Of a stretch of DNA of 64,000 nt, positions 6,950 through 29,252 are shown one piece after another (within the stretch, counting starts at the first letter, position 1; each line of letters begins with the position of its first letter). The notes beneath the pieces were generated by a model. It did not search any database. It was not told the origin of the DNA and was given only the letters and a program-made list of their open reading frames with translations. This stretch comes from Chryseobacterium sp. Its GTDB lineage: Bacteria; Bacteroidota; Bacteroidia; Flavobacteriales; Weeksellaceae. A program made the position numbers and the translations under genes. The DNA lies in contig JAPUEB010000006.1 of NCBI GenBank assembly GCA_027492795.1, positions 186,001 through 250,000 on the forward strand, in the 5' to 3' direction.

Positions 6950-6961
6950 TTTTCATAAAAT

Positions 6962-8302
6962 ATGCAGTATTTAGACAATATTTTATTTGTAATCCTCCTG
7001 ATTGCAGGTTTTGGGCTATTTTATAAAAGTCTGAAAGAAATTTACCGCAATATCTACCTTGCAAAACCAATCAACCGTTGCGACCATAAAAAAGAGCGAT
7101 GGAACACAATGTTCAATATCGCTTTGGGACAGGGAAAAATGGGAGCTCGTCCAGTTGCGGGTTTTCTGCATGTTTTGGTTTACGTAGGTTTCGTAATCAT
7201 CAATATCGAATTGCTTGAAATTATTGTGGACGGTATTTTCGGAACACATCGTTTCTTGGCTTCAATAATGGGAAATACGCTTTACTCTATTTTTACTGCA
7301 ACATTAGAAATTTTAGCAATTCTTGTTGTTTTTGCTGTTGTAGTTTTCTTCATCAGAAGAAATTTTTACGGTGTGAAACGTCTTACCATGAAAGAACTTT
7401 TCGGTTGGCCAAAAAACGACGCGAACTGGATTTTGATTATCGAATTTCTTCTAATGATGGCTTTTTTCAAAATGAATTCTTCAGATTTCATCCTTCAAAG
7501 CAGAGGCGTGGAAGGTTATCATCATTTAGGGAGCTTCCCAATCAGCCAACATCTTTTTGTTCCGATTTACGAATGGTTTAATTTCGATAGCGGACTTCTC
7601 ATTTTTGCAGAACGTGCAGCTTGGTGGTTCCATTTCGTGGGGATTTTGTTTTTCATGAATTACCTTTATTATTCCAAGCATTTGCACATTATTTTGGCTT
7701 TTCCGAATACGTGGTATGCAAATTTGAATAAAAAAGGAAAACTCAACAATTTAGAAAGCGTTACCAAAGAAATAAAGTTGATGATGGATCCAAACGCAGA
7801 TCCTTACGCAGCACAACCAGATGCTGATGCAAACGCAGTTCCAGAAAAATTCGGTGCAAACGATATTTTTGATTTAAACAGAGTTCAGTTACTCAACGCT
7901 TATACTTGTACTGAATGTGGACGATGCACCTCGGTTTGTCCGGCGAATATAACCGGCAAAAAACTTTCTCCACGAAAAATCATGATGGATACTCGTGATA
8001 GAATTGAGGAAGTTGGAAAAAATATCAACAAAAACGGAAAATTTGTAGATGACGGCAAAAAACTGCTTGACGACCATATTTCCCGTGAAGAACTTCGCGC
8101 TTGCACCACCTGTAACGCTTGTGTGGAAGCTTGTCCAGTATTAATTGATCCACTTTCCATCATCATCGATTTGCGCAGGTATATGATTATGGAAGAATCA
8201 TCAATGCCGCACGAATGGCAACTAATGCTGAATAATATTGAAAACAACGCCGCTCCGTGGCAATACAACCAAGCCGATCGTTTGAATTGGGCGAATGATT
8301 AA
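6962..8302 (+). CDS. membrane-bound dicluster Fe-S oxidoreductase subunit (HdrD/GlcF-like, N-terminal half)
   Basis: A 446-aa protein. The N-terminal 250 residues hold five hydrophobic segments, like a respiratory gamma-subunit membrane anchor. The C-terminal part has two ferredoxin-type motifs, CTECGRCTSVCP (about residue 316) and CTTCNACVEACP (about residue 380), for two 4Fe-4S clusters. The next gene supplies the CCG-type cysteine-rich half, so the two look like a split HdrD/GlcF/LutA-type electron-transfer unit linked to the quinone pool. The electron donor cannot be told from sequence. It starts 12 bp after the MlaD gene, which suggests co-transcription. Confidence 0.85.
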   Translation: MQYLDNILFVILLIAGFGLFYKSLKEIYRNIYLAKPINRCDHKKERWNTMFNIALGQGKMGARPVAGFLHVLVYVGFVIINIELLEIIVDGIFGTHRFLASIMGNTLYSIFTATLEILAILVVFAVVVFFIRRNFYGVKRLTMKELFGWPKNDANWILIIEFLLMMAFFKMNSSDFILQSRGVEGYHHLGSFPISQHLFVPIYEWFNFDSGLLIFAERAAWWFHFVGILFFMNYLYYSKHLHIILAFPNTWYANLNKKGKLNNLESVTKEIKLMMDPNADPYAAQPDADANAVPEKFGANDIFDLNRVQLLNAYTCTECGRCTSVCPANITGKKLSPRKIMMDTRDRIEEVGKNINKNGKFVDDGKKLLDDHISREELRACTTCNACVEACPVLIDPLSIIIDLRRYMIMEESSMPHEWQLMLNNIENNAAPWQYNQADRLNWAND

Positions 8303-17491: not shown

Positions 17492-17560
17492 TTTTTTGTT
17501 TTTTTGTGAGTCTGTTGGATTCAAAATGAGTGCCGAAGTTAAAAAGCATTTTTTCCATAA

Positions 17561-17587
17561 CCTTGTCAAGGTTCCAAACCTTGACAA
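17561..17587. repeat. strong hairpin (12-bp perfect stem)
   Basis: CTTGTCAAGGTT, loop CCA, AACCTTGACAAG. It lies between the regulator's stop codon and the lipoprotein start. There is no T-run on the minus strand after it, so it is more likely a dispersed hairpin than a terminator. Confidence 0.6.
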
Positions 17588-17628
17588 GATTGAGCGAGTT
17601 AGAATTAACTTCAAAAAATTCCGCGCAA

Positions 17629-19455
17629 TCACTTCATCAATCCCTCCAAATATTCTGTAGGAGGAATTCCGTATCGTTCGGTAAAGAGATTGGTGAAAGC
17701 TTCGGGAGTGCTAAATCCTAAATGTGAAGAAATATCGCGGATTTTTTTCTTTTTGAAAAACGAAGGTTCTTCATCAACCTTTTTTGCTAAATATTTGAAC
17801 CTCAAATCGTTGATGTAGTGATTGAAAACCAAACCTGTATTCACCTTGATTACTTTTGCCAAATATTTTTCATTGGTACTGAATTCTTCTGCAAGTGGAA
17901 TAAGGCGGATGTTCTTTTTCAAAAACTTATTTTTCTGCTCAAAGTTTTCCAGTTTTTTTAGAATATGCTTCAGCGTTTCCGGACTTATAGGATAGTATGG
18001 ATTTTCTTCCAATTCCGGCTCCGGTTTTTCCGTTGGATGCAGAATATAGGCAATATCATCATCTTCTTCGTTCGTTATTTTCTGCTCATTTTCATCAAAT
18101 TCCGGTGCTGTGTTTTCATCCAAATCATTCACGCTATCACTTTCATGAACACTTAAAATCGGACTTTCTTCAGCATTTTCTAATGCAACATCTGTTTCCA
18201 TCTCATCCTTTTCTTCATACTCAACCTCTCTCTCCATCGCCATTTCCCGAAGTTCCTGTTTTCTTTTTATGCGGTAGAAAATGTAGGAAATAATTCCCAA
18301 AACTGTAAAAACAATGCTTGCGATAAAAGCCCAACGTTCTTTTTTGCGGTCGCTTTCTATTTTGGCTTTTTCTTCCAGCAGGCGTTTTTCGTCGTAATCG
18401 GTATTGAGTTTATAGACGAGGTTTTTTTGTTCTTCGGCGAACTTTCGGTCGTAGGCGAGAAGGTTTTCTACGGCTTGCAACTGTTTTTCGCGATTGCCTT
18501 TGTTTTTATAATAGTCTATATAGAACTCGAACATGGGGCGAAACTCCATGGAAATCCTGCCTGTTTCGGTGTAATCTTTATTGATTTCCTCAAAATAGGA
18601 AAGTGCCTGTTCTGGCTGGTTTAGCTTCCAGAAGGACATGCCGATGTAGAATTTTTCTTCCAGATGTTTGTCTTCGTCGTGAAATTCTTCAAGCGATTGT
18701 AGATATTTTTGAATACTTCTTTTATAATCATTCTTTTTATATAAATTAAAAGCAAAAGCTCTAGAAAAATATGCTGAATAGTAGGCTAATTTTTTGTTAT
18801 TTTTAGTCTCTTTGTTTATTTCGTCAAAAATTGCAGAATTTTCTTCAAAATTTCCTATTGCAGAGTTTACTTTCGTCAAAAAATACAACGAGAATAAATA
18901 ATCACCTTTTTTACTGGGCATTTTTTCCTGTTTCCATTTAAAATACGATGTAGTTTCGGTGAGAATTTGATGTGCTTTTTTTAAGTCTCCAAGAAGATAG
19001 CGAATATGTCCTATAGTGACTTTGCTGGAATTGCTATATTCTTTTGAGTTATCATTTTTAAGATAATCATAAGATATCAAAGCATGTTCTAAAGATTTTT
19101 CATAGTTATAAATATCCAAGTTTGCATCTGCTGAACTTTGATATGCTAAACCAATATATCTTCTATCGCCAATTTTTATGGCGAGAGTTACTAAGCTATC
19201 AGCATAATGGCTTCGTAATAAAACAGGGCTTTTATCTGCAGCAAAAAAATATCCGCCGAATAACTCGTCATTGTTATTCTGTTTTTTTGCCAAGACAATG
19301 TATTTTTTTATTAAGTCGTATTGCTTTTCTTGTTTGTTTCCAGCTAAATAAATTTCATCTTCAAGTTGTTTGAATTCTAAGTTTTTCTCTTCCTGCGCTA
19401 AAACACAGGAAAACGAACCCCAAAAAATCATCAAAAAAAGGAAAAATTGCTTCAT
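17629..19455 (-). CDS. TPR - transmembrane - AraC-type HTH hybrid regulator
   Basis: A 608-aa protein. The start at 19455 gives a clear signal sequence (MKQFFLFLMIFWGSFSCVLAQ). The next about 340 residues are helical repeats of TPR type (LGDLKKAHQILTETTSYF; IGMSFWKLNQPEQALSYFEEI) and would be periplasmic. One transmembrane helix follows at about 373-393 (WAFIASIVFTVLGIISYIFY), then an acidic linker and a cytoplasmic C-terminal AraC/XylS HTH (about 510-605, EEFSTNEKYLAKVIKVNTGL and ISSHLGFSTPEAFTNLFTERYG). Such hybrids transmit an envelope signal to DNA. Four 17-bp direct repeats upstream (19559-19638) fit a self-binding site. Confidence 0.9.
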   Translation of the reverse strand: MKQFFLFLMIFWGSFSCVLAQEEKNLEFKQLEDEIYLAGNKQEKQYDLIKKYIVLAKKQNNNDELFGGYFFAADKSPVLLRSHYADSLVTLAIKIGDRRYIGLAYQSSADANLDIYNYEKSLEHALISYDYLKNDNSKEYSNSSKVTIGHIRYLLGDLKKAHQILTETTSYFKWKQEKMPSKKGDYLFSLYFLTKVNSAIGNFEENSAIFDEINKETKNNKKLAYYSAYFSRAFAFNLYKKNDYKRSIQKYLQSLEEFHDEDKHLEEKFYIGMSFWKLNQPEQALSYFEEINKDYTETGRISMEFRPMFEFYIDYYKNKGNREKQLQAVENLLAYDRKFAEEQKNLVYKLNTDYDEKRLLEEKAKIESDRKKERWAFIASIVFTVLGIISYIFYRIKRKQELREMAMEREVEYEEKDEMETDVALENAEESPILSVHESDSVNDLDENTAPEFDENEQKITNEEDDDIAYILHPTEKPEPELEENPYYPISPETLKHILKKLENFEQKNKFLKKNIRLIPLAEEFSTNEKYLAKVIKVNTGLVFNHYINDLRFKYLAKKVDEEPSFFKKKKIRDISSHLGFSTPEAFTNLFTERYGIPPTEYLEGLMK

Positions 19456-19511
19456 ACAATTCGTGTTTTCACAGATTTGTCTGCAAAAAAAAGGAATTTT
19501 CATCATTTATG

Positions 19512-19519
19512 CAAATTTT
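19512..19519 (-). promoter_or_regulatory. candidate -7 box of the AraC-type regulator
   Basis: AAAATTTG on the minus strand (one mismatch to TAnnTTTG), with TTG (19539-19541) 19 bp further upstream as -33. It is 57 bp before the start codon. The repeat array begins 17 bp upstream of the -33. Confidence 0.5.
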
Positions 19520-19558
19520 CTTGTAAAATATTGGTTTTCAATCTGAAAAATTTTATGC

Positions 19559-19638
19559 TTTCCTGCTTTTGCAGATTCTCTTTCCGTTTTTAGCAGAGGT
19601 TTTCCTGTAATTGCAGAGGTTTTTCCTGTTGGTGCAGA
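19559..19638. promoter_or_regulatory. operator-like array of four 17-bp direct repeats
   Basis: TTTCC-N7-GCAGA occurs at 19559-19575 (first copy TTTCC-TGCTTTT-GCAGA), 19581-19597, 19601-19617 and 19622-19638. Start-to-start distances are 22, 20 and 21 bp, about two helical turns. It lies just upstream of the candidate -33 of the AraC-type regulator and also faces the divergent lipoprotein gene at 19815. 17-bp sites at 21-bp spacing are the classic AraC half-site geometry. Confidence 0.65.
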
Positions 19639-19814
19639 CTGCAAAAAAAAGAAAGTTTGGAAAACGCATTTTCGTACTGCATCTTTGGAACAAGCAAAAC
19701 GCAATAGTCCAATTGCACAGAAAAAGATCTTTGACATCTACGGTAACATAAAAAATAAAAATGAACAAATCTTGCCAAGGCAGGGAAAATTTAAAATAAC
19801 TAAAAAAAAATAAT

Positions 19815-20102
19815 ATGAGAACTAAAAAATTTACTTTGACGGCATTATCAGGGATTGTGGTATTATCTGTTTTTTCATGTAGAAATGCTGATGATAGTGT
19901 AATAGAGCATCAAAATTTGTCGAAACATAATTTGACTTCGAAAACCGAAATCTATTTTAATTCTAGAAATGTTGATTCTATAAAATGTCAAACTAATGGC
20001 GATATTGATTCTTCTAAAACTAAAGACCCAAAGTTCGAACCATTTCCGCCGCCAAATTCAAGTAATTTTCCTTCTGATTCAATTAGTGTCTCCGTACAGT
20101 AG
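19815..20102 (+). CDS. small putative lipoprotein at the head of the accessory locus
   Basis: A 95-aa protein with lipoprotein signal MRTKKFTLTALSGIVVLSVFSC (Cys22). The short polar mature part has a proline-rich end (FEPFPPPNSSNFPSDS). That end resembles FNPFPPRF at the C-terminus of the secreted protein at 21849-22460. It is divergent from the TPR/AraC regulator and separated from it by the operator-like array, so the regulator may control it. No family is recognised. Confidence 0.6.
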   Translation: MRTKKFTLTALSGIVVLSVFSCRNADDSVIEHQNLSKHNLTSKTEIYFNSRNVDSIKCQTNGDIDSSKTKDPKFEPFPPPNSSNFPSDSISVSVQ

Positions 20103-20178
20103 TTGAAAATGGAGAAATGAGAATTTAACCAACTAGAGCTAAAAAAGCTAACATTAAAAACTAATAACCACCAAAAGA

Positions 20179-20420
20179 CCAATCCCGTAAGATTGGAAAC
20201 CAAAAGGAAACCCCGTAAGGTTTCAAAATCAAAACCCAGTCCCGTAAGACTGGTACTTTTTAAACTAACCACTAAAAAATCGAAACTATGGATCCTTGAA
20301 ATGAGAAAACGCAACTAATAACCAGAAAAAGACTGAACCGTAAGTTCAGCAAAAAAACTAATAACCACCAAAGACCAATCCCGTAAGATTGGCAACCCAA
20401 AAGAAACCCCGTAAGGTTTC
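20179..20420 (+). repeat. array of six mini-hairpins with constant CCGTAA loop
   Basis: Hairpins lie at 20179-20196 (CCAATC/GATTGG), 20207-20224 (GAAACC/GGTTTC), 20236-20253 (CCAGTC/GACTGG), 20333-20349 (CTGAAC/GTTCAG, loop CGTAA), 20375-20392 (CCAATC/GATTGG) and 20403-20420 (GAAACC/GGTTTC). Stems differ but always pair; the loop is constant. The first and last pairs form a direct repeat of about 66 bp that starts AACTAATAACCACCAAA. GUAA inside the loop could form a GNRA tetraloop closed by C-G. The rest of the gap to 20820 has no gene. Confidence 0.75.
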
Positions 20421-20744
20421 AACTTTAAAAACTAACTAACCAACCAAGGATTGCTTCGTTGCACTCGCAATGACGAAATCCATTTTCAGAAAACCGGTTT
20501 TCGCTGTAGTTTTTCGTTTTCTGAAAATTATCTGCCAATAACGTCCTGCAAATAAAAATGCAATGGCGAATATGAGGCGGAATAATAAAACAAATGCATG
20601 CCGGAAATCTTAGCAGCGGCAGTAAAAACTGTAAAGAAAGATTGCTTTTCGCATGTGGGAATGGCAATAAAAGTCGGAGAAGTGTTGTAACAGCGACTAT
20701 AAATTTGTAAAACAGCGAAAAACTTTTTAACAAAACAGACGGAC

Positions 20745-20819
20745 TAAAAAAACAAGTGCTTCTCTCGTTCGGAAGTTGATTTACAAAAAAATTAAAATTT
20801 TGAGAAAACAAAAATAGCT
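20745..20819 (+). promoter_or_regulatory. conserved leader/promoter block of the first cassette
   Basis: AAACAAGTGCTTCTCTCG ... TTAAAATTTTGAGAA ... ATG matches the blocks before 23313 and 24570 (AAACAAGTACTTCTCTCG ... TTTAAAATTTGAGAAG). CTTCTC and GAGAA(G) can pair. AAATTTTG is a one-mismatch -7 box 23-30 bp before the ATG. Confidence 0.5.
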
Positions 20820-21626
20820 ATGAAATCTATGATTCACGAATTCAAACAAAACAATTTACAAAAAATGAGTAAAAATGTAATTAAATTATTTAGTGTATTA
20901 ATGGTAATGATAGGAAGCTTTGCTTTTGGGCAGACAACTTCGAAAGATTTAGAAAACGTTGGAATTGAGCACAATAAAATGATGGATTTACTATATAGAC
21001 ATTTTCTAGACAATAAAATTCAAAACAAAATTAGTTTAGAAATAAAGTATGTTGGGGGGAATTATTTGAAAAATCTGAGAGGATATAATGAGGACGATAT
21101 TCAACTAGGAATAAGAAACCTTGAAAACTATGTTCAGAATCCTTCTTTCTATAGTGGAAATGTCTATGAAGGTTTTGAAAAAGTAATTTCAAATAAATCT
21201 AAAAGTTTTCTTGACATTCTAAATACCATAATAAACGATGAGAGCTTGAGTCAGGAAATTTTTCATCAGAAAATAACGGAATTGGAGGTTCAAATTGATA
21301 AATCTGGTCTGGAAAATAAGGATTTAGTGATTTTGTATTCAGCAACAAATGTTGCAAGATATTCTTTTGATTACTGGACTAAAAATTATTCGCAATGGGA
21401 AACTTTAGACTTGTCTAAAAACACCGCTGCAAGAAAAGGACCTGGTCGTAGGATTGTAGGGATGGATGTTGCAGGTGCTGTTGGCGGAGCTGCAGGAGCA
21501 TGGGCTGTAAATGTAGTTCCAGGTGCTGGACAAGTTGCTTATGGTGGTGCAATTATAGGCGGAGCAGTAGCTGGTTCAGTAGGACAGGCTGTATATGAAT
21601 TAGGAAGTTATTTTGATTTATGGTAA
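20820..21626 (+). CDS. Sec-exported protein with C-terminal glycine-rich hydrophobic domain (cassette A)
   Basis: A 268-aa protein. The start at 20820 is supported by the leader block shared with two other cassettes, which ends exactly at ATGAAA. A long n-region is followed by the signal core IKLFSVLMVMIGSFAFGQ (cleavage near residue 38). About 150 helical residues follow, then a C-terminal hydrophobic domain with glycine-zipper character (VAGAVGGAAGAWAVNVVPG ... GGAIIGGAVAGSVGQAV). Its signal peptide nearly matches that of 23313-24044 while the mature parts differ. The Gly-zipper resembles those of pore-forming bacteriocins, but no known family is recognised. Confidence 0.75.
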   Translation: MKSMIHEFKQNNLQKMSKNVIKLFSVLMVMIGSFAFGQTTSKDLENVGIEHNKMMDLLYRHFLDNKIQNKISLEIKYVGGNYLKNLRGYNEDDIQLGIRNLENYVQNPSFYSGNVYEGFEKVISNKSKSFLDILNTIINDESLSQEIFHQKITELEVQIDKSGLENKDLVILYSATNVARYSFDYWTKNYSQWETLDLSKNTAARKGPGRRIVGMDVAGAVGGAAGAWAVNVVPGAGQVAYGGAIIGGAVAGSVGQAVYELGSYFDLW

Positions 21627-21637
21627 AAAATAAAGAA

Positions 21638-21793
21638 ATGGACTTGAAGAAATTTATAATTGCAGGGGTAGTAAATATGGCATTAGCTTTTGTTATCTTG
21701 AAATTATGGGACATTAATGTTTTCATCCCTATGGTTTTAGCTACAATAATTATATCATTAATTAAAAATAAAAAGAATCACAAAGAATTATAG
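21638..21793 (+). CDS. small membrane protein paired with cassette A
   Basis: 51 aa: MDLKKFIIAGVVNMALAFVI, a charged/aromatic turn (LKLWDINVF), a second hydrophobic segment and a basic tail (LIKNKKNHKEL). It has two transmembrane helices and a cytoplasmic Lys-rich end. The start is 12 bp after the stop of the secreted protein, so the two are co-translated. It is possibly an immunity or docking partner; this rests only on the recurring pairing in this locus. Confidence 0.6.
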   Translation: MDLKKFIIAGVVNMALAFVILKLWDINVFIPMVLATIIISLIKNKKNHKEL

Positions 21794-21848
21794 AAAAAAA
21801 ATAATTATAAAGACATTTTTTTAACAATTAACAAAAAATCCGATAACC

Positions 21849-22460
21849 ATGAAAACAATTATTAAATTATTCAGCTTTGTAATGGTGCTTTTTACCACGA
21901 TGACTTTCGCACAATATCATCCAGACGGGTGCATTCCCGATCCGCTTCGGGACAAGATAAAAGCCCTTACGAAAGACCAAATCAATTGGGATTTCGACCG
22001 TCCGATGAACGAGCAGCGTATTGCCTCCTTTTTAACGAGTTTCAATGATGCTTTCAACAGGCATTTGAACGGCGAACGTGTATCGCAAGAAATGGTACAA
22101 ACAATCGAGAATATTGATGAGAAGTATAAAATTCTGACCATTAGACTCATTGCAAAATCAAACAATTTTGAAACGCTTAAAAAGAATATTGAAACAGAGC
22201 TTCTGGTAAGCGAAAGCCCAGAAACAAAAGAAAGTTTGCTTGCCACTCATTATGCAGTACAATTGGTAGAAAAATCTTATTCAGAAAGAACAAGCGCCTT
22301 AAACTGGGATTGTATTGCCAATGTAATAGGATTCGCAAGTACGAATGTAATGAGTAACCCGAACGATCCTGTAAATGATTTTGGAAATGCAAGTGGCGGT
22401 ATCGCAGGTGGTGGATGTACGCCTACATTTAATCCTTTTCCACCAAGGTTTTGCAAATAA
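21849..22460 (+). CDS. Sec-exported protein (cassette B)
   Basis: A 203-aa protein with signal peptide MKTIIKLFSFVMVLFTTMTF (cut after FAQ) related to those of cassettes A and C. The mature part has two Cys near the ends (HPDGCIPD; GGGCTPTFNPFPPRFCK). A helix LLATHYAVQLVEKSYSERTS sits where A and D have similar Tyr/Trp-containing helices before the tail. It has a short Gly stretch (GNASGGIAGGG) instead of the long Gly-zipper domain. Family unknown. Confidence 0.72.
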   Translation: MKTIIKLFSFVMVLFTTMTFAQYHPDGCIPDPLRDKIKALTKDQINWDFDRPMNEQRIASFLTSFNDAFNRHLNGERVSQEMVQTIENIDEKYKILTIRLIAKSNNFETLKKNIETELLVSESPETKESLLATHYAVQLVEKSYSERTSALNWDCIANVIGFASTNVMSNPNDPVNDFGNASGGIAGGGCTPTFNPFPPRFCK

Positions 22461-22569
22461 TTAATACACAAAAAAAAACATTTATTAGAACAATGAACAC
22501 ACAAACAAAAATCACCCTCTACATCACAGAATTTTTTCATTAAATATTAACCTTTAAAACCTATGAATC

Positions 22570-22767
22570 ATGAAACATTTTTTAAACCACACCGGTACGT
22601 TTCTGCTGTTTTTTTTCCTGATGCAGATTTCAGGCGCATGTTTTTACCAGTTCTCTAAAATGAACTATAGCAACGAGGCTTTAACAAGCTTATCCATTAT
22701 GGTAATCAGCTTCTGTCTATCTGTTTACACATTTCATAACCAAAAATTTATAAGTTATGAAACGTAG
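22570..22767 (+). CDS. small membrane protein paired with cassette B
   Basis: 65 aa with two hydrophobic segments (GTFLLFFFLMQISGACFY and LTSLSIMVISFCLSVYTF). It overlaps the next gene by 11 bp, which supports it being real. It has the same position relative to a secreted protein as the small proteins at 21638, 24055 and 25496. Confidence 0.6.
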   Translation: MKHFLNHTGTFLLFFFLMQISGACFYQFSKMNYSNEALTSLSIMVISFCLSVYTFHNQKFISYET

Positions 22768-23179
22768 TACCATCGCAGCGCTATTTTTTACCATGTCCGC
22801 AGCAACTGCACATGCGCAAATGTCGCCCGTTACCAATTTCGATAGAGGCTTACTTGTAGGCAATCTTCTTATAGAAGGCTATAAGCTGATAAGAGGAAAC
22901 GGAACGGGAAGCAAAGCACCCGATCCTACTGCAAAAACCGTAGAAAGCTTCTGTTTTAAAAATAAAATGGACGAAAAAATCTCGGTTAAACTCACAGGCA
23001 GGATAGAGGATGAGGACATTAGAAAGGAAATGGTAATTCAAAAAGGAGAAAAAGAATGCACCTACCAATTGCCGAAAGGGGTTTATCTGTACGAAATTGC
23101 CCTTTCCAGCAAAGATATTTACCAGAAAGGCGAATATCAGGTAACAGAGGAAACTCTGATGACCATTAACAAAAAATAA
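22757..23179 (+). CDS. secreted 140-aa protein; donor of the duplicated 3' end
   Basis: Signal peptide MKRSTIAALFFTMSAATAHA, then a short linker and a beta-rich segment (FCFKNKMDEKISVKLTG ... CTYQLPKGVYLYEIAL). It overlaps the preceding small membrane gene by 11 bp. Its last 76 bp, its terminator and the following leader are copied at 24361-24569, and a diverged part at 25596-25715, so the cassettes look inserted or duplicated at its 3' end. No family is recognised. Confidence 0.72.
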   Translation: MKRSTIAALFFTMSAATAHAQMSPVTNFDRGLLVGNLLIEGYKLIRGNGTGSKAPDPTAKTVESFCFKNKMDEKISVKLTGRIEDEDIRKEMVIQKGEKECTYQLPKGVYLYEIALSSKDIYQKGEYQVTEETLMTINKK

Positions 23180-23312
23180 TGGAATCCGCCGTGTAAAAAG
23201 CGGCGGATATTTTACAAAAAATTAATATCCAAACATTGTGGTTAAATAAAACAAGTACTTCTCTCGCCACGGTGTTTAAACAAAATTTAAAATTTGAGAA
23301 GACAAAATTATT
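23104..23312 (+). repeat. 209-bp direct repeat, copy 1 (gene end + terminator + leader)
   Basis: Aligns without gaps to 24361-24569 with 5 differences. It contains the last 76 bp of the 140-aa gene, the GATCCGCCG-type terminator and the leader that ends at the ATG of cassette C. Confidence 0.92.
23184..23213 (+). terminator. terminator after the 140-aa gene
   Basis: ATCCGCCG, 9-nt loop, CGGCGGAT, then ATTTTAC. The same hairpin recurs at 24441-24465 and 25677-25701. Confidence 0.8.
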
Positions 23313-24044
23313 ATGAAAACAATTCAGAAAATCCAAAAAAGTAATTTAGAAAAAATGAGTAAAAGTGCAATTAAATTGTTCAGCGTATTAATGGTATTGA
23401 TTGGAAGTTTTGCTTTTGGGCAGGATAAACATAGCACTCAAAGTGTTGAGTTATTTATGAGTAATGTTGAGAAGACTACGGAATTACTCATAAATAAAAA
23501 AATAGGGCCGGATGAAACTAAATTAACATTTGAGAATTTGTTTAAAGGACAAGGTATAAGTATTATTGAAGATTACTTTATTGATGACAGAGAGCTTTCA
23601 GGAGAATATAAATCAATCTGCCTTAATATTGTCTCAGCAGATAAATATGAAACAGAAAGTGACTATCTAAATCATTTAATGCAGATTGAGAGACACATTG
23701 GAACATCTAGATTAACCGAAAAAGAGAAACAGCTGGCTCAAGTTCTTACTGATTTCGAGCGGCAATTAGTAATCAAGATGCAAAATCTAAATGATAAATA
23801 TGGTAGCGTTGAAACGGGTAAGAAAGGATGGTGGAAAAGCTGGGGTAAATGTGTAGCGAGTTCTTTGGGAGGAGCAATAACAGGTGGCGTTGTAGGATGT
23901 GGAGCCATAGGAGGAATAGGAGCCATAGTTGGAACTGTCGTTCCTGGACCAGGAAACGCTGTTGGCGCTGCAGCTGGCTGTATAGGTGGTGGTATTGCTG
24001 GTGCTATCGGAGGTGGACTTTCTGGCGCTGCTTTGGGATGTTAA
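23313..24044 (+). CDS. Sec-exported protein with C-terminal glycine-zipper domain (cassette C)
   Basis: A 243-aa protein. MKTIQKIQKSNLEKMSKSAI leads into the signal core KLFSVLMVLIGSFAFGQ, nearly the same as cassette A in protein and DNA. The mature helical part is unlike A. A Trp-rich bridge (KKGWWKSWGKC) leads to a C-terminal domain of GG/GxxxG repeats (SLGGAITGGVVGCGAIGGIG ... CIGGGIAGAIGGGLSGAALGC) with four Cys. The look is that of a membrane-inserting or self-assembling peptide domain. The translation start is set by the repeat boundary. Confidence 0.75.
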   Translation: MKTIQKIQKSNLEKMSKSAIKLFSVLMVLIGSFAFGQDKHSTQSVELFMSNVEKTTELLINKKIGPDETKLTFENLFKGQGISIIEDYFIDDRELSGEYKSICLNIVSADKYETESDYLNHLMQIERHIGTSRLTEKEKQLAQVLTDFERQLVIKMQNLNDKYGSVETGKKGWWKSWGKCVASSLGGAITGGVVGCGAIGGIGAIVGTVVPGPGNAVGAAAGCIGGGIAGAIGGGLSGAALGC

Positions 24045-24054
24045 AATTATTATA

Positions 24055-24255
24055 ATGAGACATCTTAAATTTATGTCCGTAGGACTTGCTCTAACTGGAT
24101 TTCTAATGACATTTTTCATTTTTAAAAACACAAAAAATTTTCTTGGAACCGATTCCGAATGGAAATATTATTTTTCATTAACGGGATTCATCATATTTTC
24201 AATTATGCTTTTAATAGTAATTGCAGCAATGCTAATTTCAAAAAGAAAAAAATAG
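24055..24255 (+). CDS. small membrane protein paired with cassette C
   Basis: 66 aa from ATG 24055 (10 bp after the cassette C stop). It has two hydrophobic segments (FMSVGLALTGFLMTFFIF; FSLTGFIIFSIMLLIVIAAML) and a basic tail ISKRKK. The longer in-frame extension to 23986 lies inside the Gly-zipper coding region in another frame and is rejected. Confidence 0.62.
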   Translation: MRHLKFMSVGLALTGFLMTFFIFKNTKNFLGTDSEWKYYFSLTGFIIFSIMLLIVIAAMLISKRKK

Positions 24256-24276
24256 ATAATCCGTATGGAATAATGT

Positions 24277-24426
24277 GTGTTACAAGCAATCATCAGCAAA
24301 TTAGTTATGGCAATTGCTGTCGATTTTGTCTTCAACACATGGGAAAGAAAAGAAAGTAATTTCCAGCAAAGATATTTACCAGAAAGGCGAACATCAGGTA
24401 ACAGAGGAAACTCTGATGACCGTTAA
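24277..24426 (+). pseudogene. degenerate small membrane ORF running into the repeat
   Basis: A GTG-started frame begins LQAIISKLVMAIAVDFVFNTWERK, reminiscent of LYAIIGTLLGAIVGNYVLEY in the intact small protein at 25496. It then reads out of frame into the duplicated gene end. It may be the remnant of another cassette partner whose secreted protein was lost. Confidence 0.3.
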
Positions 24427-24569
24427 CAAAAAATAACGGGATCCGCCGTGTAAAAAGCGGCGGATATTTTACAAAAAATTAATAACCAAACATTGTGGTT
24501 AAATAAAACAAGTACTTCTCTCGCCACGGTGTTTAAACAAAATTTAAAATTTGAGAAGACAAAATTATT
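24361..24569 (+). repeat. 209-bp direct repeat, copy 2 (with 76-bp gene fragment)
   Basis: A copy of 23104-23312 with 5 substitutions. The first 76 bp are an orphan 3' fragment of the 140-aa gene (no start, no upstream part). The terminator (24441-24465) and leader follow and end at the ATG of cassette D. Confidence 0.92.
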
Positions 24570-25490
24570 ATGAAAGGATTGTTTTTGAACTTTATAGCTA
24601 TTATGCTTGCTTTTAATATGGGAACCGCACAAATAAAAGTTGAGGATTATTATTATCTTGGCAATTTGCATAACAAAGGTCTTGATTATGTAGTACAAAA
24701 TATAGATGAAGAAAAATTCTCAAAAAATTTGGATCAAAACGTTAATTATATTAATGATCTATTAACGTCTTTTTATAAACAAAATGGCATACATAATAGT
24801 GGTAGTGGTAACTTTCAATATTTTGTGGTTGCAGAAAACTTTATGAGCTATTTAAACAACGGTGCAAATGCTTATCAAGAATTAGGAAGTGTAGCATTTG
24901 AGACAACAAGAAGCTTGAATCTATCATTTGGTTTACTTAGTGATGAACCTACATTTTCATCATTGCTTACAAATTCACTAAATCAAAGAATAATAGACAA
25001 CTACGAATTTTCTAGTTTAGTAGAAATTAAGAAATTGGTTGATGATAATGGTAAAGGTATGAACAAGACCTCAGAAATTTTGGAGCAATTAATAATTAAG
25101 AAAAATCAATTTGATGCCAAAAAATATCCGACTTCTAATAATGCGGGTCACGTTCTAGCAATTACTCTAGCCATTTCAATAAAATCGATGGAATGGTGGA
25201 TTGAGCATGAAGATTTCATGACATATCAGGGAACAAGCGAGGAATATTTCTTAGTAAAAAATGGTCCAAATGGGGATATTGAATTTAAAAAGAATTCATC
25301 GGTAGTAGTTGCTCCTTGGGTAGCTGCTGATGTAGCTGGAGCAGTAGTCGGTGCTGCGGGAGGCGCAATCTCCTCCTATGCTGGAACAGGTAGTGTGAAC
25401 TGGACTTCTGTAGGGGTATCTGCAGTATTTGGTGCGGTCACCGGTTCAACAGGTGTAGTTGGAAGATTGGCGAAATTGATTAAAAAATAA
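24570..25490 (+). CDS. Sec-exported protein with C-terminal Ala/Gly-rich domain (cassette D)
   Basis: A 306-aa protein with signal peptide MKGLFLNFIAIMLAFNMGTA(Q). A long helical mature part includes HVLAITLAISIKSMEWWIEH, which occupies the place of the LVILYSATNVARYSFDYW helix in cassette A. A C-terminal domain follows (VAADVAGAVVGAAGGAISSY ... FGAVTGSTGVVGRLAKLIKK). The promoter/leader is shared with cassette C through the 209-bp repeat, but the coding sequence is unrelated at the DNA level. Unknown family, same architecture as A and C. Confidence 0.75.
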   Translation: MKGLFLNFIAIMLAFNMGTAQIKVEDYYYLGNLHNKGLDYVVQNIDEEKFSKNLDQNVNYINDLLTSFYKQNGIHNSGSGNFQYFVVAENFMSYLNNGANAYQELGSVAFETTRSLNLSFGLLSDEPTFSSLLTNSLNQRIIDNYEFSSLVEIKKLVDDNGKGMNKTSEILEQLIIKKNQFDAKKYPTSNNAGHVLAITLAISIKSMEWWIEHEDFMTYQGTSEEYFLVKNGPNGDIEFKKNSSVVVAPWVAADVAGAVVGAAGGAISSYAGTGSVNWTSVGVSAVFGAVTGSTGVVGRLAKLIKK

Positions 25491-25495
25491 TTATT

Positions 25496-25594
25496 ATGGA
25501 AAATTGGATTTTATATGCAATCATCGGTACATTACTAGGGGCTATTGTAGGTAACTATGTTCTTGAATACATGAAAAAGAAAAAAAGAAAATAA
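25496..25594 (+). CDS. tiny membrane protein paired with cassette D
   Basis: 32 aa: MENWILYAIIGTLLGAIVGN then YVLEYMKKKKRK. It is a single hydrophobic helix with a GxxxG-like motif and a strongly basic end. The start is 5 bp after the cassette D stop. It is very short, and its support comes from the recurring secreted/small-membrane pairing. Confidence 0.5.
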   Translation: MENWILYAIIGTLLGAIVGNYVLEYMKKKKRK

Positions 25595-25595
25595 T

Positions 25596-25715
25596 TTCCA
25601 GCAAACAAATTTGCCAAAAAAAGCGAATATCTGTTAACAGAGGAAACTATGATGATCATTAACAAAAAATAAGGGGATCCGCCGTGTAAAAAGCGGCGGA
25701 TATTTTTACAAAAAA
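25596..25715 (+). repeat. diverged third copy of the gene end + terminator
   Basis: TTCCAGCAAA ... AACAGAGGAAACTATGATGA ... ATCCGCCGTGTAAAAAGCGG match copies 1 and 2 with more changes. The match ends before the leader, so the following gene lacks the shared promoter block. Terminator at 25677-25701. Confidence 0.8.
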
Positions 25716-25723
25716 TTATTTTC

Positions 25724-25912
25724 ATGCGAACAAAAAAATTAAGAATAATAGCAGCAGCGCTATTCGCTTTTGCAGCAGCAATTTTTACTTATCTGCTGTA
25801 TGTAAATAATATGAACTTCCAAAATCAGAACGTTTGGATGTACGGAATTTCATGTGCAGTATTATTACTAATCTCTGCAATGCTTCTAAAACAGGATAAC
25901 AGTTCTCAATAA
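25724..25912 (+). CDS. small two-helix membrane protein
   Basis: 62 aa with two hydrophobic segments (IIAAALFAFAAAIFTYLLYV; MYGISCAVLLLISAMLL). It follows the third repeat copy without a secreted partner, and a good terminator is at 25922-25959. It is probably an orphan member of the small membrane group. The start MRTKKL resembles the N-terminus of the lipoprotein at 19815. Confidence 0.55.
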   Translation: MRTKKLRIIAAALFAFAAAIFTYLLYVNNMNFQNQNVWMYGISCAVLLLISAMLLKQDNSSQ

Positions 25913-25921
25913 TTAGTTTTT

Positions 25922-25959
25922 CCTCCGGTGAAATTTCTGTATTTTGCCGGAGGTTTTTT
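25922..25959 (+). terminator. rho-independent terminator
   Basis: CCTCCGG ... CCGGAGG followed by TTTTTT. Confidence 0.85.
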
Positions 25960-26080
25960 ATTGAGAAAATAACGAATAATAGAATATAGAAATTTGTATA
26001 ATTACACTAATTATAGAAATCGCAATGAAGTTGATTTGCTCTTTTACTTAAAAAAGCTTTTTTTGAAAAATTGATTTATT

Positions 26081-26302
26081 ATGAAAACATCTAAAACGCA
26101 ATTGCTCATTATGCTCTCCATTTTTGCGGCTTATCTTATAATTATCATAGGATTTTCTACCAATTGGTTTAAAAGTTCATTCAACATGGAGCCTTATTTT
26201 GTGTTGTGGCTCACTGCGGCATTTGCCTTTATCTCTCTTTTTAGAATGACGATTAAGTATTTTGTGGAGAAAGAAAAAGAAAATCAACAGAAAAGACGAT
26301 GA
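26081..26302 (+). CDS. small two-helix membrane protein
   Basis: 73 aa: MKTSKTQLLIMLSIFAAYLI starts the first helix, a loop with NWFKSSFNMEP follows, then a second helix (YFVLWLTAAFAFISLFRM) and a charged tail EKEKENQQKRR. It is the last of the accessory group; no family is recognised. Confidence 0.55.
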   Translation: MKTSKTQLLIMLSIFAAYLIIIIGFSTNWFKSSFNMEPYFVLWLTAAFAFISLFRMTIKYFVEKEKENQQKRR

Positions 26303-26351
26303 TCTGTTTTAAGAAATAGAAATAAACAGTAGTCAAGATTTTATATCAAAA

Positions 26352-26428
26352 ATCAATTTCTTTACCCCAAAGCTAAGGTGAGGAAATTGATGTTCTTCGC
26401 TCCCTTTAGGGTTGGTGAAAACGAAGAA
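26352..26428. repeat. CCCTTTAGGGTTGG-core hairpin element, copy 2
   Basis: Two adjacent hairpins: ATCAATTTC/GAAATTGAT (26352-26391) and TTCTTCG/CGAAGAA (26393-26428), the latter enclosing CTCCCTTTAGGGTTGG. Related elements lie inside the MITE-like element at 14.2 kb and, inverted, at 57.7 kb. It occupies the gap before the 26504 terminator. Confidence 0.7.
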
Positions 26429-26503
26429 AATTAATTTCCGATTACATACTACATTATTCAATCACTATAAATTTTAATTTTTTGTTTTCAGGTGATGGTT
26501 TGT

Positions 26504-26536
26504 CCTCGGTGTTTTACGGAACATCGGGGATTTTTT
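26504..26536 (+). terminator. rho-independent terminator with TTACGG loop
   Basis: CCTCGGTGTT, loop TTACGG, AACATCGGGG, then TTTTTT. The loop is the reverse complement of the CCGTAA loops at 20.2-20.4 kb. Confidence 0.75.
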
Positions 26537-26614
26537 ATTGCTGAAAATTAAAATGATTTTGAAAGCAGAAACAACTTTGCCAAAGCTAATTTACATTAAT
26601 TTTTGGCTAAGTTT

Positions 26615-27091
26615 TTACTTATACTCCACTTTCTTTTTGTCGGCACCCATGAAAACCGCTTTTCCTCCACTTTCAGACACCTCGATCGTAATTTTATCGT
26701 CTCCATAAACGTTTTTTCCTTCGTGTGCGGTAAGAAGCCCTACTTTTTTAGGCGCATCTTTTCCTTTGGTGTAAGTAACGTATTTGTTTCCGTTTTTTTC
26801 TTCGTCAAAAACAAGTTTTAGGTTTTCACCTTGGCTGTTTTTTAATGTTACTCCGGGATTGTTTTCAACTTCTTCTACATTTTTACCCACACTTTCGACT
26901 TCAGATTTTTCAATCATTTCCACTTCATCCTTGTTGTATTGGGCAACTTGTGCGCTGTCCACATCGGCATTTTTTGCAATTTCTTCTACTTCTGCAGTAT
27001 TGTCTACTGCGGCTTCTTCTACTTTCGTTTCTTTTTTACAGGATACCATCACCAATGCAGTGCAAATGGCGGGAATAAGGATTTTTTTCAT
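26615..27091 (-). CDS. putative lipoprotein
   Basis: 158 aa with lipobox MKKILIPAICTALVMVSC (Cys18). It has an acidic low-complexity stretch (KVEEAAVDNTAEVEEIAKN) and a C-terminal compact domain of short beta strands (NLKLVFDEEKNGNKYVTY ... ITIEVSESGGKAVFMGADKK), vaguely like a lysozyme-inhibitor (MliC-type) fold. That likeness is a guess from strand pattern only. It is transcribed convergently to the accessory region. Confidence 0.72.
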   Translation of the reverse strand: MKKILIPAICTALVMVSCKKETKVEEAAVDNTAEVEEIAKNADVDSAQVAQYNKDEVEMIEKSEVESVGKNVEEVENNPGVTLKNSQGENLKLVFDEEKNGNKYVTYTKGKDAPKKVGLLTAHEGKNVYGDDKITIEVSESGGKAVFMGADKKKVEYK

Positions 27092-27170
27092 AAAATTTTA
27101 CTTTTTAATAATTAGAGATATTTTCCTAAAAACGAATTTTTTGGATAAAAATTTTATCGGCTTATGAACT

Positions 27171-28052
27171 TTAATAAAACTCAATAGGATTATTTTTTCT
27201 TTTCATCTTTTCCCTGGCTTCTTCTTCATAATAACGAATAAGCTCATTTGTTTCGGTAATTTTTCTGCCATCGCCTGTTTGTACAATCATAGAAACTCCC
27301 GGTCTCGCTAATTCCTGTTTTAAGTTTTTTACGGGATCATTTTGATATTCTTGATATAATTTCGTGTACTGTTTGCCATTAATTTTCAATTTATTTACGG
27401 AACTTCCATAAGCTTGCGTTCCTAAACCTTCTATATAATCCCAAGTATTATCCTTTTTTGAAAGTTTTTTATTTCCTTTCAACAAAAACTGATGAGTTCC
27501 GCTGCGGTCTTCCATTTTTACAATCAACCCTGGCAAACCATAAAATTTGTAGGGACCTTCCGGAATGGGAATTTCTTTCGTAAACCACGCCGTCCATTTT
27601 CTTCCGCCGTAATCTAATGTCGCTTTTTGGCAATGATACTTTTCAATGATTTTGGTTTCGTTGGAAATAATCCAGTTCGGCTTCCTATCTTCTTCTACAA
27701 GCAAATTCTCTCGTTCTATTGCAGTGTCCCAAAAGGTTTCATAGTCGGGATATTTTTTTTTGATGACGTAAGCAATGTTCCAATCCAAGCTTTTTCCTGA
27801 AACTGAATAAGTTCCCGGTGTTCTTTTTTGCTGCTCAATAATAGAATTTAACATAATAGAATCGCTCATAAATTTTTCCTGACCATAAAAAAAAGACTCA
27901 TTCTTCATCACATCCAAATTCATCATTTCCTTTTTCAAAGAATCAGTTTTGGTAGAGTCTGTGCGAAATTTATATTCGTAAATAAATCTGTGGTTCTGCG
28001 AAAAACAAAATAAAAATAGATTGAAGAACAAAATAGTGAAGAAACTTTTCAT
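27171..28052 (-). CDS. GLPGLI family protein (first copy)
   Basis: 293 aa from ATG 28052, giving signal peptide MKSFFTILFFNLFLFCFSQ; codons upstream of it lie in the promoter. The family-naming motif is present (YKFYGLPGLIVKMED), with the usual preceding segment GGRKWTAWFTKEIPIPEGP. GLPGLI proteins are exported, restricted to Bacteroidota and of unknown function. A second, related copy lies at 32712-33578. Confidence 0.93.
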   Translation of the reverse strand: MKSFFTILFFNLFLFCFSQNHRFIYEYKFRTDSTKTDSLKKEMMNLDVMKNESFFYGQEKFMSDSIMLNSIIEQQKRTPGTYSVSGKSLDWNIAYVIKKKYPDYETFWDTAIERENLLVEEDRKPNWIISNETKIIEKYHCQKATLDYGGRKWTAWFTKEIPIPEGPYKFYGLPGLIVKMEDRSGTHQFLLKGNKKLSKKDNTWDYIEGLGTQAYGSSVNKLKINGKQYTKLYQEYQNDPVKNLKQELARPGVSMIVQTGDGRKITETNELIRYYEEEAREKMKRKNNPIEFY

Positions 28053-28068
28053 ATAAAATGGTTTGAAA

Positions 28069-28076
28069 CAAACATA
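28069..28076 (-). promoter_or_regulatory. -7 box (TATGTTTG) of the GLPGLI gene
   Basis: Exact TAnnTTTG on the minus strand, 17 bp before the chosen start codon; it supports the start at 28052. Confidence 0.6.
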
Positions 28077-28129
28077 ACGAATATTTTGTAAATTAATTTC
28101 GCTTGAAGAAAATATCACCCATTTTTTCC

Positions 28130-28137
28130 TAAATTTG
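28130..28137 (+). promoter_or_regulatory. -7 box (TAAATTTG) of the acyltransferase gene
   Basis: Exact TAnnTTTG, 17 bp before the ATG at 28155, with TTG at 28103-28105 as a possible -33. Confidence 0.6.
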
Positions 28138-28154
28138 ATAGATTAAAAACATTT

Positions 28155-29252
28155 ATGAAAAGAGACCTCTACATTGATTTTGCCAAAGGTTTGGCCACCA
28201 TTTCCGTTATTTTTATCCACACCGTTTTCTGGAGCGGACAGTTTTACGTTCCTTCGGAAGTTCGGGTGTTGTCTTTGCTTTTTGATGTCGTTCTTTTCTA
28301 TGCATTAAGCGGAATTACTTCCGGCGGAAATGTGGAAAAAACCTTGTACAGGTTGCTGAAACTGCAAATTACCTTCATGATTTTTGTAACGCTCATCTTT
28401 TTCCTCGATTATTTTTTTAAAGTTTTCGGGCTCTCGCTTTTCGGGATGGATTGGATGAAGAATTTCTACAGCACCTTCGGCGGAAAATACGTTCCACAAG
28501 ATATTTCAACTCTTCCACAATGGCAAAATCTCGGCAACTGGTATCTTCACAGCTATACCAATGCAGATACTTTTCCGGTAATTATGGGCAGTTTTTGGTA
28601 TTTGAAGGTGTATTATATTTTAACGGTTTTGGGCGTTCTTATTATCCGATTTTTTCCAAAACACATCCACTGGTTCATTGGGCTTTGTTTCGCATTAACG
28701 CTGATATTTCATATTTTCCCGCACTATTATCCAAGCGGACAAGTTGGTTACGTAGCACTTTATTTAGGCGTTTTTCTCATAGGAAACCGCATGAAGGGCA
28801 AAACCATTCCAAAAAACTGGATTTTTCTGCTTTACGGAATGGTTGCAATCGCCTTAATTTGGCTTTTTTCCTCCTATGGAATTGAAATTTTCTACAAACT
28901 CAATAAAAATAAATTTCCGCCGAAAATTCCTTACATTATTTGGATTGCATTTTCTGTGGTTACGCTTTTTGTTTTTTACAACCGCTTGAAAATCTCTAAA
29001 AAAAGCATCATCACCTACATCGGCGAAAACGCGATTTTCTTTTATTTTGCGCAGGGAATCAGTTCATCGCTCATTTATTTCATCGTAGTTCCATTGCATG
29101 AAAAAATGCCGTGGTTCATCTTTTTGCCCATCGTTTTCGTCATCAATTTAGTTTTGGCATATTTTCTTGCCATACTTTTGAACAAATTTGATGCTTTGGG
29201 ATGGAAAATTTTAGAATATTTACGAAAAAAAACTGCCTCAATTCAAAATTGA
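28155..29252 (+). CDS. acyltransferase family 3 membrane protein
   Basis: A 365-aa integral membrane protein with about 10 hydrophobic segments. The N-terminus MKRDLYIDFAKGLATISVIF followed by IHTVFW has the R/D...KG...V.xHxxxW signature of membrane-bound O-acyltransferases (OatA/WecH/NodX type), in which the His is catalytic. It would acylate an extracytoplasmic glycan. It is a single gene, divergent from the GLPGLI gene. Its last codons form part of the terminator of the convergent gene. Confidence 0.87.
   Translation: MKRDLYIDFAKGLATISVIFIHTVFWSGQFYVPSEVRVLSLLFDVVLFYALSGITSGGNVEKTLYRLLKLQITFMIFVTLIFFLDYFFKVFGLSLFGMDWMKNFYSTFGGKYVPQDISTLPQWQNLGNWYLHSYTNADTFPVIMGSFWYLKVYYILTVLGVLIIRFFPKHIHWFIGLCFALTLIFHIFPHYYPSGQVGYVALYLGVFLIGNRMKGKTIPKNWIFLLYGMVAIALIWLFSSYGIEIFYKLNKNKFPPKIPYIIWIAFSVVTLFVFYNRLKISKKSIITYIGENAIFFYFAQGISSSLIYFIVVPLHEKMPWFIFLPIVFVINLVLAYFLAILLNKFDALGWKILEYLRKKTASIQN

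Follow-up and report, generated by a model that had tools for sequence, protein, structure and literature searches.

A 64,000-nucleotide (nt) stretch of a Chryseobacterium sp. genome (GenBank assembly GCA_027492795.1, contig JAPUEB010000006.1, positions 186,001 to 250,000 of the forward strand; hereafter, the window) contains an array of genes for four exported proteins, designated A to D, interspersed with open reading frames (ORFs) for very small hydrophobic membrane proteins (Table 1). All four exported proteins have Sec-type signals of the Q-rule form of Bacteroidota, in which cleavage occurs before Gln (PMC5837995, PMC10653852). A pattern search placed the cleavage between FAFG and Q in A and C and between TFA and Q in B, and the site of D, between GTA and Q, was located by eye. 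The signal regions of A and C showed 84% identity over 102 nt, whereas their mature parts gave no BLASTP match (best E 6.3); in an ungapped comparison, the likeness ended at the TTTGGGCAG codons, which correspond to the signal-peptide cleavage site. A, C, and D end in glycine zippers. GxxxG occurred 89 times in 23 paired zipper ends, compared with 53.9 ± 6.1 in 1000 shuffles (maximum 72).

Leave-one-out profile tests gave 100.5 bits for A (shuffled maximum 12.1) and 57.0 bits for D (shuffled maximum 10.2). Judged by these scores, A and D are members of one profile family; C is marginal and B unsupported by the same test. The first, N-terminal domain (N-domain) looks helical in AlphaFold2 models of low confidence. 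A preliminary description of the window, made from the sequence alone, had reported four exported proteins each followed by a small membrane protein of its own, two extra small membrane proteins, nearly identical signals in front of unrelated mature parts in A and C, and GxxxG-rich ends in three of the four. The reading frames and the export signals of all four proteins were confirmed, as were the two extra ORFs at 25724 and 26081 and the zipper ends of A, C, and D. Pairing stood for A, C, and D, with gaps of 11, 10, and 5 nt, but not for B, whose nearest candidate starts 109 nt away. Likewise, unrelated mature parts were found for A and C, but A and D share the profile family described above.

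Table 1 Genes, repeats, and related features of the array (coordinates of the window).
Feature	Position	Strand	Remarks
Upstream region and signal-peptide codons of A	20745..20933	+	Homologous to 23243-23423 of C; 80.5% over 190 nt
Protein A, 268 amino acids (aa)	20820..21626	+	Sec signal of the Q-rule form; GIEHN and SFDYW motifs in the helical domain; glycine-zipper domain at the C-terminus; putative toxin
Partner of A, 51 aa	21638..21793	+	Hydrophobic, Lys-containing tail; putative immunity protein
Protein B, 203 aa	21849..22460	+	Exported, Cys-containing, short Gly tail; family membership unsupported
Small membrane ORF 109 nt 3' of B	22570..22767	+	Pairing with B doubtful
Gene E, small exported protein	22757..23179	+	3' end duplicated in flank repeats
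Flank repeat copy 1	23103..23318	+	Spans the 3' end of E, a terminator-like hairpin, and the 5' leader of C through its ATGAAA
Protein C, 243 aa	23313..24044	+	Signal like that of A; Cys-punctuated glycine-zipper domain; membership marginal by profile
Partner of C, 66 aa	24055..24255	+	Two hydrophobic stretches, RKK tail; putative immunity protein
Flank repeat copy 2, 5' of D	24360..24575	+	Match to copy 1 ends right behind ATGAAA
Protein D, 306 aa	24570..25490	+	Sec signal of the Q-rule form; GNLHN and SMEWW in the helical domain; glycine-zipper end; putative toxin
Partner of D, 32 aa	25496..25594	+	One membrane stretch, KKKKRK tail; putative immunity protein
Flank repeat copy 3	25595..25718	+	Contains the 3' end of E plus a terminator-like hairpin at 25677-25701; matches copy 1 at 89.5% across 124 nt
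Orphan small membrane protein, 62 aa	25724..25912	+	Directly 3' of repeat copy 3; could be an orphan immunity gene
Second orphan small membrane ORF	26081..26302	+	Belonging to the array unsupported

Module exchange and the small membrane partners

Modules of these genes are exchanged at sharp breakpoints, which lie at the start codon, at the end of the signal peptide, and at the end of the helical domain. Flank repeat copies 1 and 2, in front of C and D, are 97.7% identical over 216 nt up to ATGAAA, and the similarity is gone thereafter. Between A and C, the similarity spans the leader and the signal peptide and stops at the cleavage site. In genome G389, two adjoining modules are 98.8% identical at the DNA level across the 245 nt that end with the N-domain; beyond it, their zipper ends differ, as do their partners (93 and 109 aa). 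The alignment z-scores of the pair were 66.5 for the N-domain, 0.1 for the zipper, and 0.4 for the partner. These two modules have no signal in the available sequence, one of them being cut by the contig end, and a third module in G389, which retains only ~30 residues of the N-domain, is interrupted by a stop. In G991, two full-length members whose partners differ stand in tandem among repeats of about 270-530 nt. Even the domain order varies: the proteins of loci L077, L079, and L117 are permuted, with a lipoprotein signal, a zipper-like part, and then the HN...SxxYW domain (assigned by eye), and have kept a small membrane partner.

Pairwise alignment z-scores of the N-domain, zipper, and partner were compared by Mantel and partial Mantel tests. 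In 23 pairs, the similarity of the partners was correlated with that of the zippers (r 0.44, p 0.0002), and the correlation persisted when the N-domain was controlled for (partial r 0.42, p 0.0002, n=21). The N-domain given the zipper was not predictive of the partner (r near 0, p 0.47), and an enlarged set of 29 pairs gave a zipper-partner r of 0.28 (p 0.0002). L079, a near-copy of L077, was left out of these tests, as were C and G1030 in the 21-pair test and L092 and L111 in the 29-pair test. By these comparisons, partner similarity appears to track the zipper and not the N-domain for the two recognisable zipper types, those of D and A; the signal is absent where the sequences are too far apart.

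For the pairing itself, an ATG ORF of 25-140 aa was accepted as a partner if it started -30 to +40 nt from the stop of the preceding gene and its best 19-residue Kyte-Doolittle mean was at least 1.9. In the window, three of the four exported proteins (A, C, and D) have such a hydrophobic ORF of 32-66 aa within 5-11 nt; for A, the version scored was an alternative of 57 aa, whose ATG overlaps the end of A. As a control, 163 mechanical ORFs of at least 150 aa outside the family were scored and five passed, two of which (L077 and L079) were permuted members, leaving 3 of 161 non-family ORFs with a partner-like ORF. Pairing was found in 17/18 members of the seed set; this set had been assembled partly while the partners were being looked at, and the later figures are therefore the fair ones. 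Among later members, 7 of 22 in the bacterial family of the window were paired (two of them permuted) and 10 of 24 in two further families, where three more had a membrane ORF 74-201 nt away. Together, 17/46 members outside the seed set were paired, compared with the 3/161 controls. That all homologues are paired, as 17 of the first 18 had indicated, was refuted by this wider search. The partners carry on average 3.5 Lys or Arg and 0.6 Asp or Glu in their last 12 residues (n=24).

On a first-domain tree of 32 rows, a single change separated 20 paired from 12 unpaired members (support 75/92, 72% of bootstrap trees). A single change did not hold on the 53-row tree, which needed 9 changes for the paired and 7 for the unpaired label, where shuffled labels gave means of 17.7 and 17.2 and none of 500 shuffles was as low. 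Of its 22 unpaired rows, 17 fell in two groups of 7 and 10, although many branches are long and the placing is unsure. Because the labels are clustered on the 53-row tree, pairing appears to be largely a property of lineages and not of the whole family, with the solitary forms mostly in clades of their own.

Before the counts were made, RHS proteins (among L011-L018, L024, L041, L043, and L076), the loci L019, L042, L044, L045, L074, L078, and L080, which were judged non-members, and L039/G1012, with a broken frame, were dropped. From the 29 loci of the two further families, we removed L102, L104, and L116 (frame broken inside the match), L097 (running off its contig), and L101, which together with L092 makes up one split gene, L101 being the 5' part and L092 the 3' part. 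L115, counted as unpaired, has a match confined to its glycine-rich end and is possibly a non-member. Matches that had no locus (G147:C1:659403, G312:C1:15756, G010:C4, three of G991:C17, and G1080:C81) were left out. The 32-row tree omits B, G389a, G377, and L075, as well as C, G1030, L068, and L081, which were without the cutting motif; L092, L111, and L115 were additionally omitted from the 53-row tree.

Relatives and possible mobility in the Bacteroidota

A homologue of D, 54% identical and with a 32-aa partner of its own, was found in Profundicola chukchiensis, another member of the Weeksellaceae and the sole relative in a scan of genome contigs. More distant relatives were sought with profiles built stepwise (A4, A6, A8, and A10). 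The A6 profile matched in 14/395 genomes of the phylum at E 0.01, non-members such as RHS proteins included; A8 matched in 31/320 genomes of the bacterial family of the window at E 0.001, again with non-members; and A10 matched in 13/45 and 12/45 genomes of two other families of the phylum at E 1e-4. The members share an anatomy of a signal, a domain with GxxHN near its start and Sxx[YW]W at its end, and then ADxxGAxxG with a glycine zipper. In a 20-row alignment, Ser182 and Trp186 of A were invariant and His51, Asp216, Gly219, and Gly223 nearly so. Export signals were present in 33 of 40 members (24 by the lipobox pattern, three lipoboxes by eye, and six of the Q-rule form); the seven without one were G680, both G389 modules, G377, G1030, L056, and L068, some of which are cut or broken. 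The closest homologue found for A was that of G989 (31% across 246 columns; E 1e-18 in a single comparison), and their partners are 30% identical over 44 aa (E 0.003, likewise in a single comparison).

At E 0.01, each model of Pfam, NCBIfam, PADLOC, and PHROGs hit at most one of 17 members; the strongest of these isolated hits were to PADLOC LeoBC (E 4.7e-5) and phrog_594 (E 5.8e-5). Of 17 partners, likewise, at most one was hit by any Pfam model, and the PDB sequences gave nothing below E 0.39. In tblastn, the A, D, G989, and G389b proteins had no match among 72,556 plasmid records, and no relative was obtained with D in a phage collection or with A4, the L034 protein, and A in viral contigs. 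Among the literature matches listed, from a coverage outside which most subscription journals and bioRxiv lie, no paper dealt with such a glycine-zipper family.

The G989 homologue of A and its 53-aa partner lie on a contig of 3,377 nt that begins and ends with 77 identical bases, which suggests a circular plasmid of 3.3 kb; its other notable genes encode a Rep_3 initiator (PF21205, E 6e-16; PF01051, E 1e-12) and a helix-turn-helix protein. In 5 of the 13 family loci inspected, the pair stands between direct repeats, namely in the window and at L020 (235 nt, 87%, including the 5' end of radA), L026 (about 632 nt, 92%), L052 (641 nt, 90%), and L049. Such repeats would be expected from the insertion of small circles by a single crossover. 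The contig of L053 (G1030:C21; 5,407 nt), with 54-nt ends that are 98% alike, is perhaps another small circle, and carries a zipper end and an 80-aa membrane protein.

Several variants were also seen. The solitary or loosely paired relatives at L094, L103, and L104 have Cys-rich C-terminal tails in place of the plain glycine zipper. A further end type, with ADAAGYL or ADAAGTI and few zippers, occurs at L091, L093, and L096, followed downstream by membrane proteins of 138 aa, 60 aa (167 nt away), and 117 aa, respectively. L068, from a genome of group g20, has no export signal, and no small membrane ORF downstream of it passed the pairing test. At L030 (G003; 6263-7611, reverse strand), two adjoining small exported proteins have a signal peptide like that of A (MLxFGSFAFGQTK) and different mature parts; one of the two has a 68-aa membrane protein behind it and ends in a tail that contains Cys. 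In the RHS-type proteins of L011, L014, L018, and L024, a glycine-rich hydrophobic stretch 3' of the core resembles the D-type zipper end, and RHS-like matches also occurred in open frames of about 2,160-2,226 aa, part of which were read. We dropped this likeness as a lead, the matches being weak (E 1e-4 to 1e-3) and possibly compositional.

Possible functions of the array

Polymorphic toxin systems have a common N-terminal part with an exchangeable C-terminal domain and an immunity-like gene directly downstream (Zhang et al. 2012, PMC3482391). The former was found in the two G389 modules and, at the start codon, in C and D; the latter was found for A, C, D, and the paired lineages and was missing for B and the solitary homologues. 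A partner that changes along with the C-terminal domain is seen directly in G389, and the correlation across pairs points the same way for the D and A zipper types. Owing to the module swapping, the partners that appear to track two zipper types, the broken orphan module of G389, and the plasmid-borne pair, we read the array as a cassette array of polymorphic interbacterial toxins with their immunity proteins, the toxins probably depolarising membranes, and give this reading a probability of roughly 0.68. The diversifying secreted antagonist with an immunity partner of the preliminary description therefore survives as the best reading. Killing, immunity, and delivery, as every step past the export signal, are what we infer.

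Glycine-zipper proteins that depolarise membranes and are restrained by membrane proteins are known from the ionophores of contact-dependent growth inhibition (CDI; PMC11630599) and from TspA/TsaI (PMC12744356). The following mechanism is proposed by analogy with these systems, with Cdz, and with BcpT/BcpI. The protein would be exported by Sec and then kept on the outer membrane or released, and its helical first domain would help it to reach or enter a neighbouring cell. There, the glycine zipper would insert into the inner membrane and cause depolarisation. In the producer, the small protein may sit in the inner membrane with its Lys/Arg-rich tail in the cytoplasm and block the cognate zipper.

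The CDI type 10 CdiA-CT/CdiI pairs are alike in having a variable membrane-active C-terminal domain behind a modular entry domain and small, highly polymorphic, cognate-specific membrane immunity proteins (the known CdiI is a hairpin); by description, they are set apart by the location of the toxin on CdiA and by their occurrence in beta- and gamma-proteobacteria, whereas the array encodes Sec-signal proteins of 203-306 aa (PMC11630599). A search confined to 17500-28500 found no CdiA-like ORF (longest ORF listed, 625 aa). SitA/SitI of Myxococcus resembles the array in its polymorphic C-terminal toxin domains, downstream immunity gene, and mobile cassettes, but the SitA ends named are enzymatic (a predicted tRNase) and delivery depends on TraA-mediated outer-membrane exchange, where the array has glycine zippers and membrane partners (PMC5562445). 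SitA is exported as a lipoprotein; in the glycine-zipper family, the lipobox pattern occurs in 24 of 40 members and is absent from A to D. BcpT/BcpI of Phocaeicola, likewise a lipoprotein toxin of the Bacteroidota on a small plasmid with a 174-bp immunity gene directly downstream, differs by description in that BcpT has 499 aa and is proteolytically activated and BcpI is a small lipoprotein, probably of the outer membrane (PMC9308784). TspA/TsaI and EsxX/ExiCD of Staphylococcus also combine a glycine-zipper depolarising toxin with membrane immunity proteins and orphan immunity genes, but TspA and EsxX use type VII secretion, EsxX with an LXG domain (PMC12744356). Bte2 of Bacteroides, of the VasX type, is an inner-membrane pore-forming antibacterial toxin of the Bacteroidota with an immunity protein; it is a large multidomain type VI effector with a MIX domain, and the available text mentions no glycine zipper (PMC12718326).

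The comparison made in the preliminary description, with class II bacteriocins and the Caulobacter Cdz system, was abandoned. Class II bacteriocins are short peptides with double-glycine leaders, GxxxG-rich membrane-active segments, and small immunity proteins. The array resembles them in its GxxxG-rich segments and small putative immunity proteins, but not in peptide length or leader. In Cdz, CdzC/CdzD are surface glycine-zipper proteins with a small transmembrane immunity protein, CdzI, but they have fewer than 100 aa, a type I secretion leader, and adjacent type I secretion genes (PMC5380434); no transporter was seen by eye among the ORFs of 17500-28500. With no double-glycine leader, lengths of 203-306 aa, and Sec-type signals, the array proteins are therefore neither of the two.

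Several results weigh against the toxin-immunity reading. When the four D-type rows were left out, the zipper-partner correlation was r 0.12 (p 0.03), and without the eight D- and A-type rows it was 0.03 (p 0.32, n=21). Solitary homologues are common: 15 of 22 and 14 of 24, that is, 29 of the 46 later members, have no close partner. Homologues of this kind had been named in the preliminary description as evidence against it, and this objection holds in part, as they fall mostly in their own clades. The partners are very small and hydrophobic, which makes their mutual homology hard to test. In the leave-one-out test, C reached 18.3 bits with a shuffled maximum of 17.5, and B 4.8 bits with a maximum of 5.0. 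Structure prediction, suggested earlier as a check, yielded AlphaFold2 models with a mean predicted local distance difference test score (pLDDT) below 40 (39.4 for A alone, 37.7 for D with its Profundicola homologue), which are unusable.

The same pairs could be Sec-exported bacteriocin precursors, with the helical domain as a pro-region, a C-terminal glycine-rich pore-forming peptide of ~60-90 residues freed by a protease, and the small protein providing immunity. From SdpC of Bacillus, a diffusible peptide is released in this manner out of the C-terminal part. The short zipper ends with their strong GxxxG periodicity would fit, and a gene for a class II-like peptide with a double-glycine leader was recognised by eye at L026 (6241-6438), behind the second flank repeat of the putative toxin pair of G802. 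However, C-terminal release could not work alike in L077, L079, and L117, in which the zipper-like part precedes the helical domain, and no conserved cleavage motif between the domains was noticed in the alignments, no dedicated search having been made. We consider precursors of this kind unlikely. Slightly less likely still are structural proteins of the surface or envelope, whose zipper would anchor or oligomerise them with the small protein as an assembly partner, and whose diversity would reflect phase or antigenic variation. The lipoprotein-like pattern of 24/40 members agrees with such proteins, and in one genus the solitary homologues L066, L069, and L070 adjoin the same exported neighbour, a pattern resembling that of a resident function; this role is at odds with partners that follow the zipper type while the N-domain is unpredictive (a signal limited to D- and A-type rows), with the broken, N-domain-poor module in G389, with a pair on a minimal 3.3-kb plasmid, and with the replacement of a whole cassette between identical flanks in C and D.

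A stress or phage-defence pair of the toxin-antitoxin type would act in the producer's own envelope and not on neighbours. It would account for a small membrane partner at a short gene distance and for the 7/40 members that have no export signal, some of them cut or broken, and an addiction module is encoded on pFB1, a small Flavobacterium plasmid whose replication region is distantly similar. We consider it highly improbable, given that 33/40 members carry a signal, that PADLOC matched just one of 17 members with one model (LeoBC), and that the queries tried had no relative in the phage and viral contig collections.

If the toxin-immunity reading is correct, many lineages of the Bacteroidota hold a toxin-immunity family outside all curated models searched, and this family has Sec-type signals, no genes for secretion having been observed next to the array. 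A simple system would then be at hand for asking by what route a Sec-exported toxin of membranes reaches a neighbour and how one 32-residue membrane protein gives zipper-specific immunity. The CDI study contends that pairs of ionophore and immunity protein tolerate mutational change unusually well and undergo radical diversification (PMC11630599); the glycine-zipper family would be an independent case of such diversification. At somewhat below even odds, we further propose that it represents a phylum-wide, undescribed weapon of the Bacteroidota, in which zipper ionophores are exported by Sec or as lipoproteins without a dedicated secretion machine. Such proteins would consist of three independently exchangeable modules (signal, helical delivery domain, and zipper), which may even be permuted, and each zipper would have a membrane immunity protein of 30-140 aa. 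Tiny plasmids would spread the cassettes, their insertion by recombination leaving the flank repeats behind, and the solitary lipoproteins would represent either the resident ancestors or a form needing no dedicated immunity.

Minor features of the window

The orphan protein at 25724 shows a weak likeness to the partner of C (31% across 35 aa; E 4e-4 in a single comparison), and gene E was matched weakly (E 9e-4) in one of 58 other genomes. No tRNA genes were found in 10000-36000, and the GC content of 0.305-0.387 per kb is not distinctive as a mark of an island. In front of A, at 20184-20415, CCCGTAAG occurs in five copies, compared with 0.68 expected in the window, and four of the five sit within hairpins whose stems differ.

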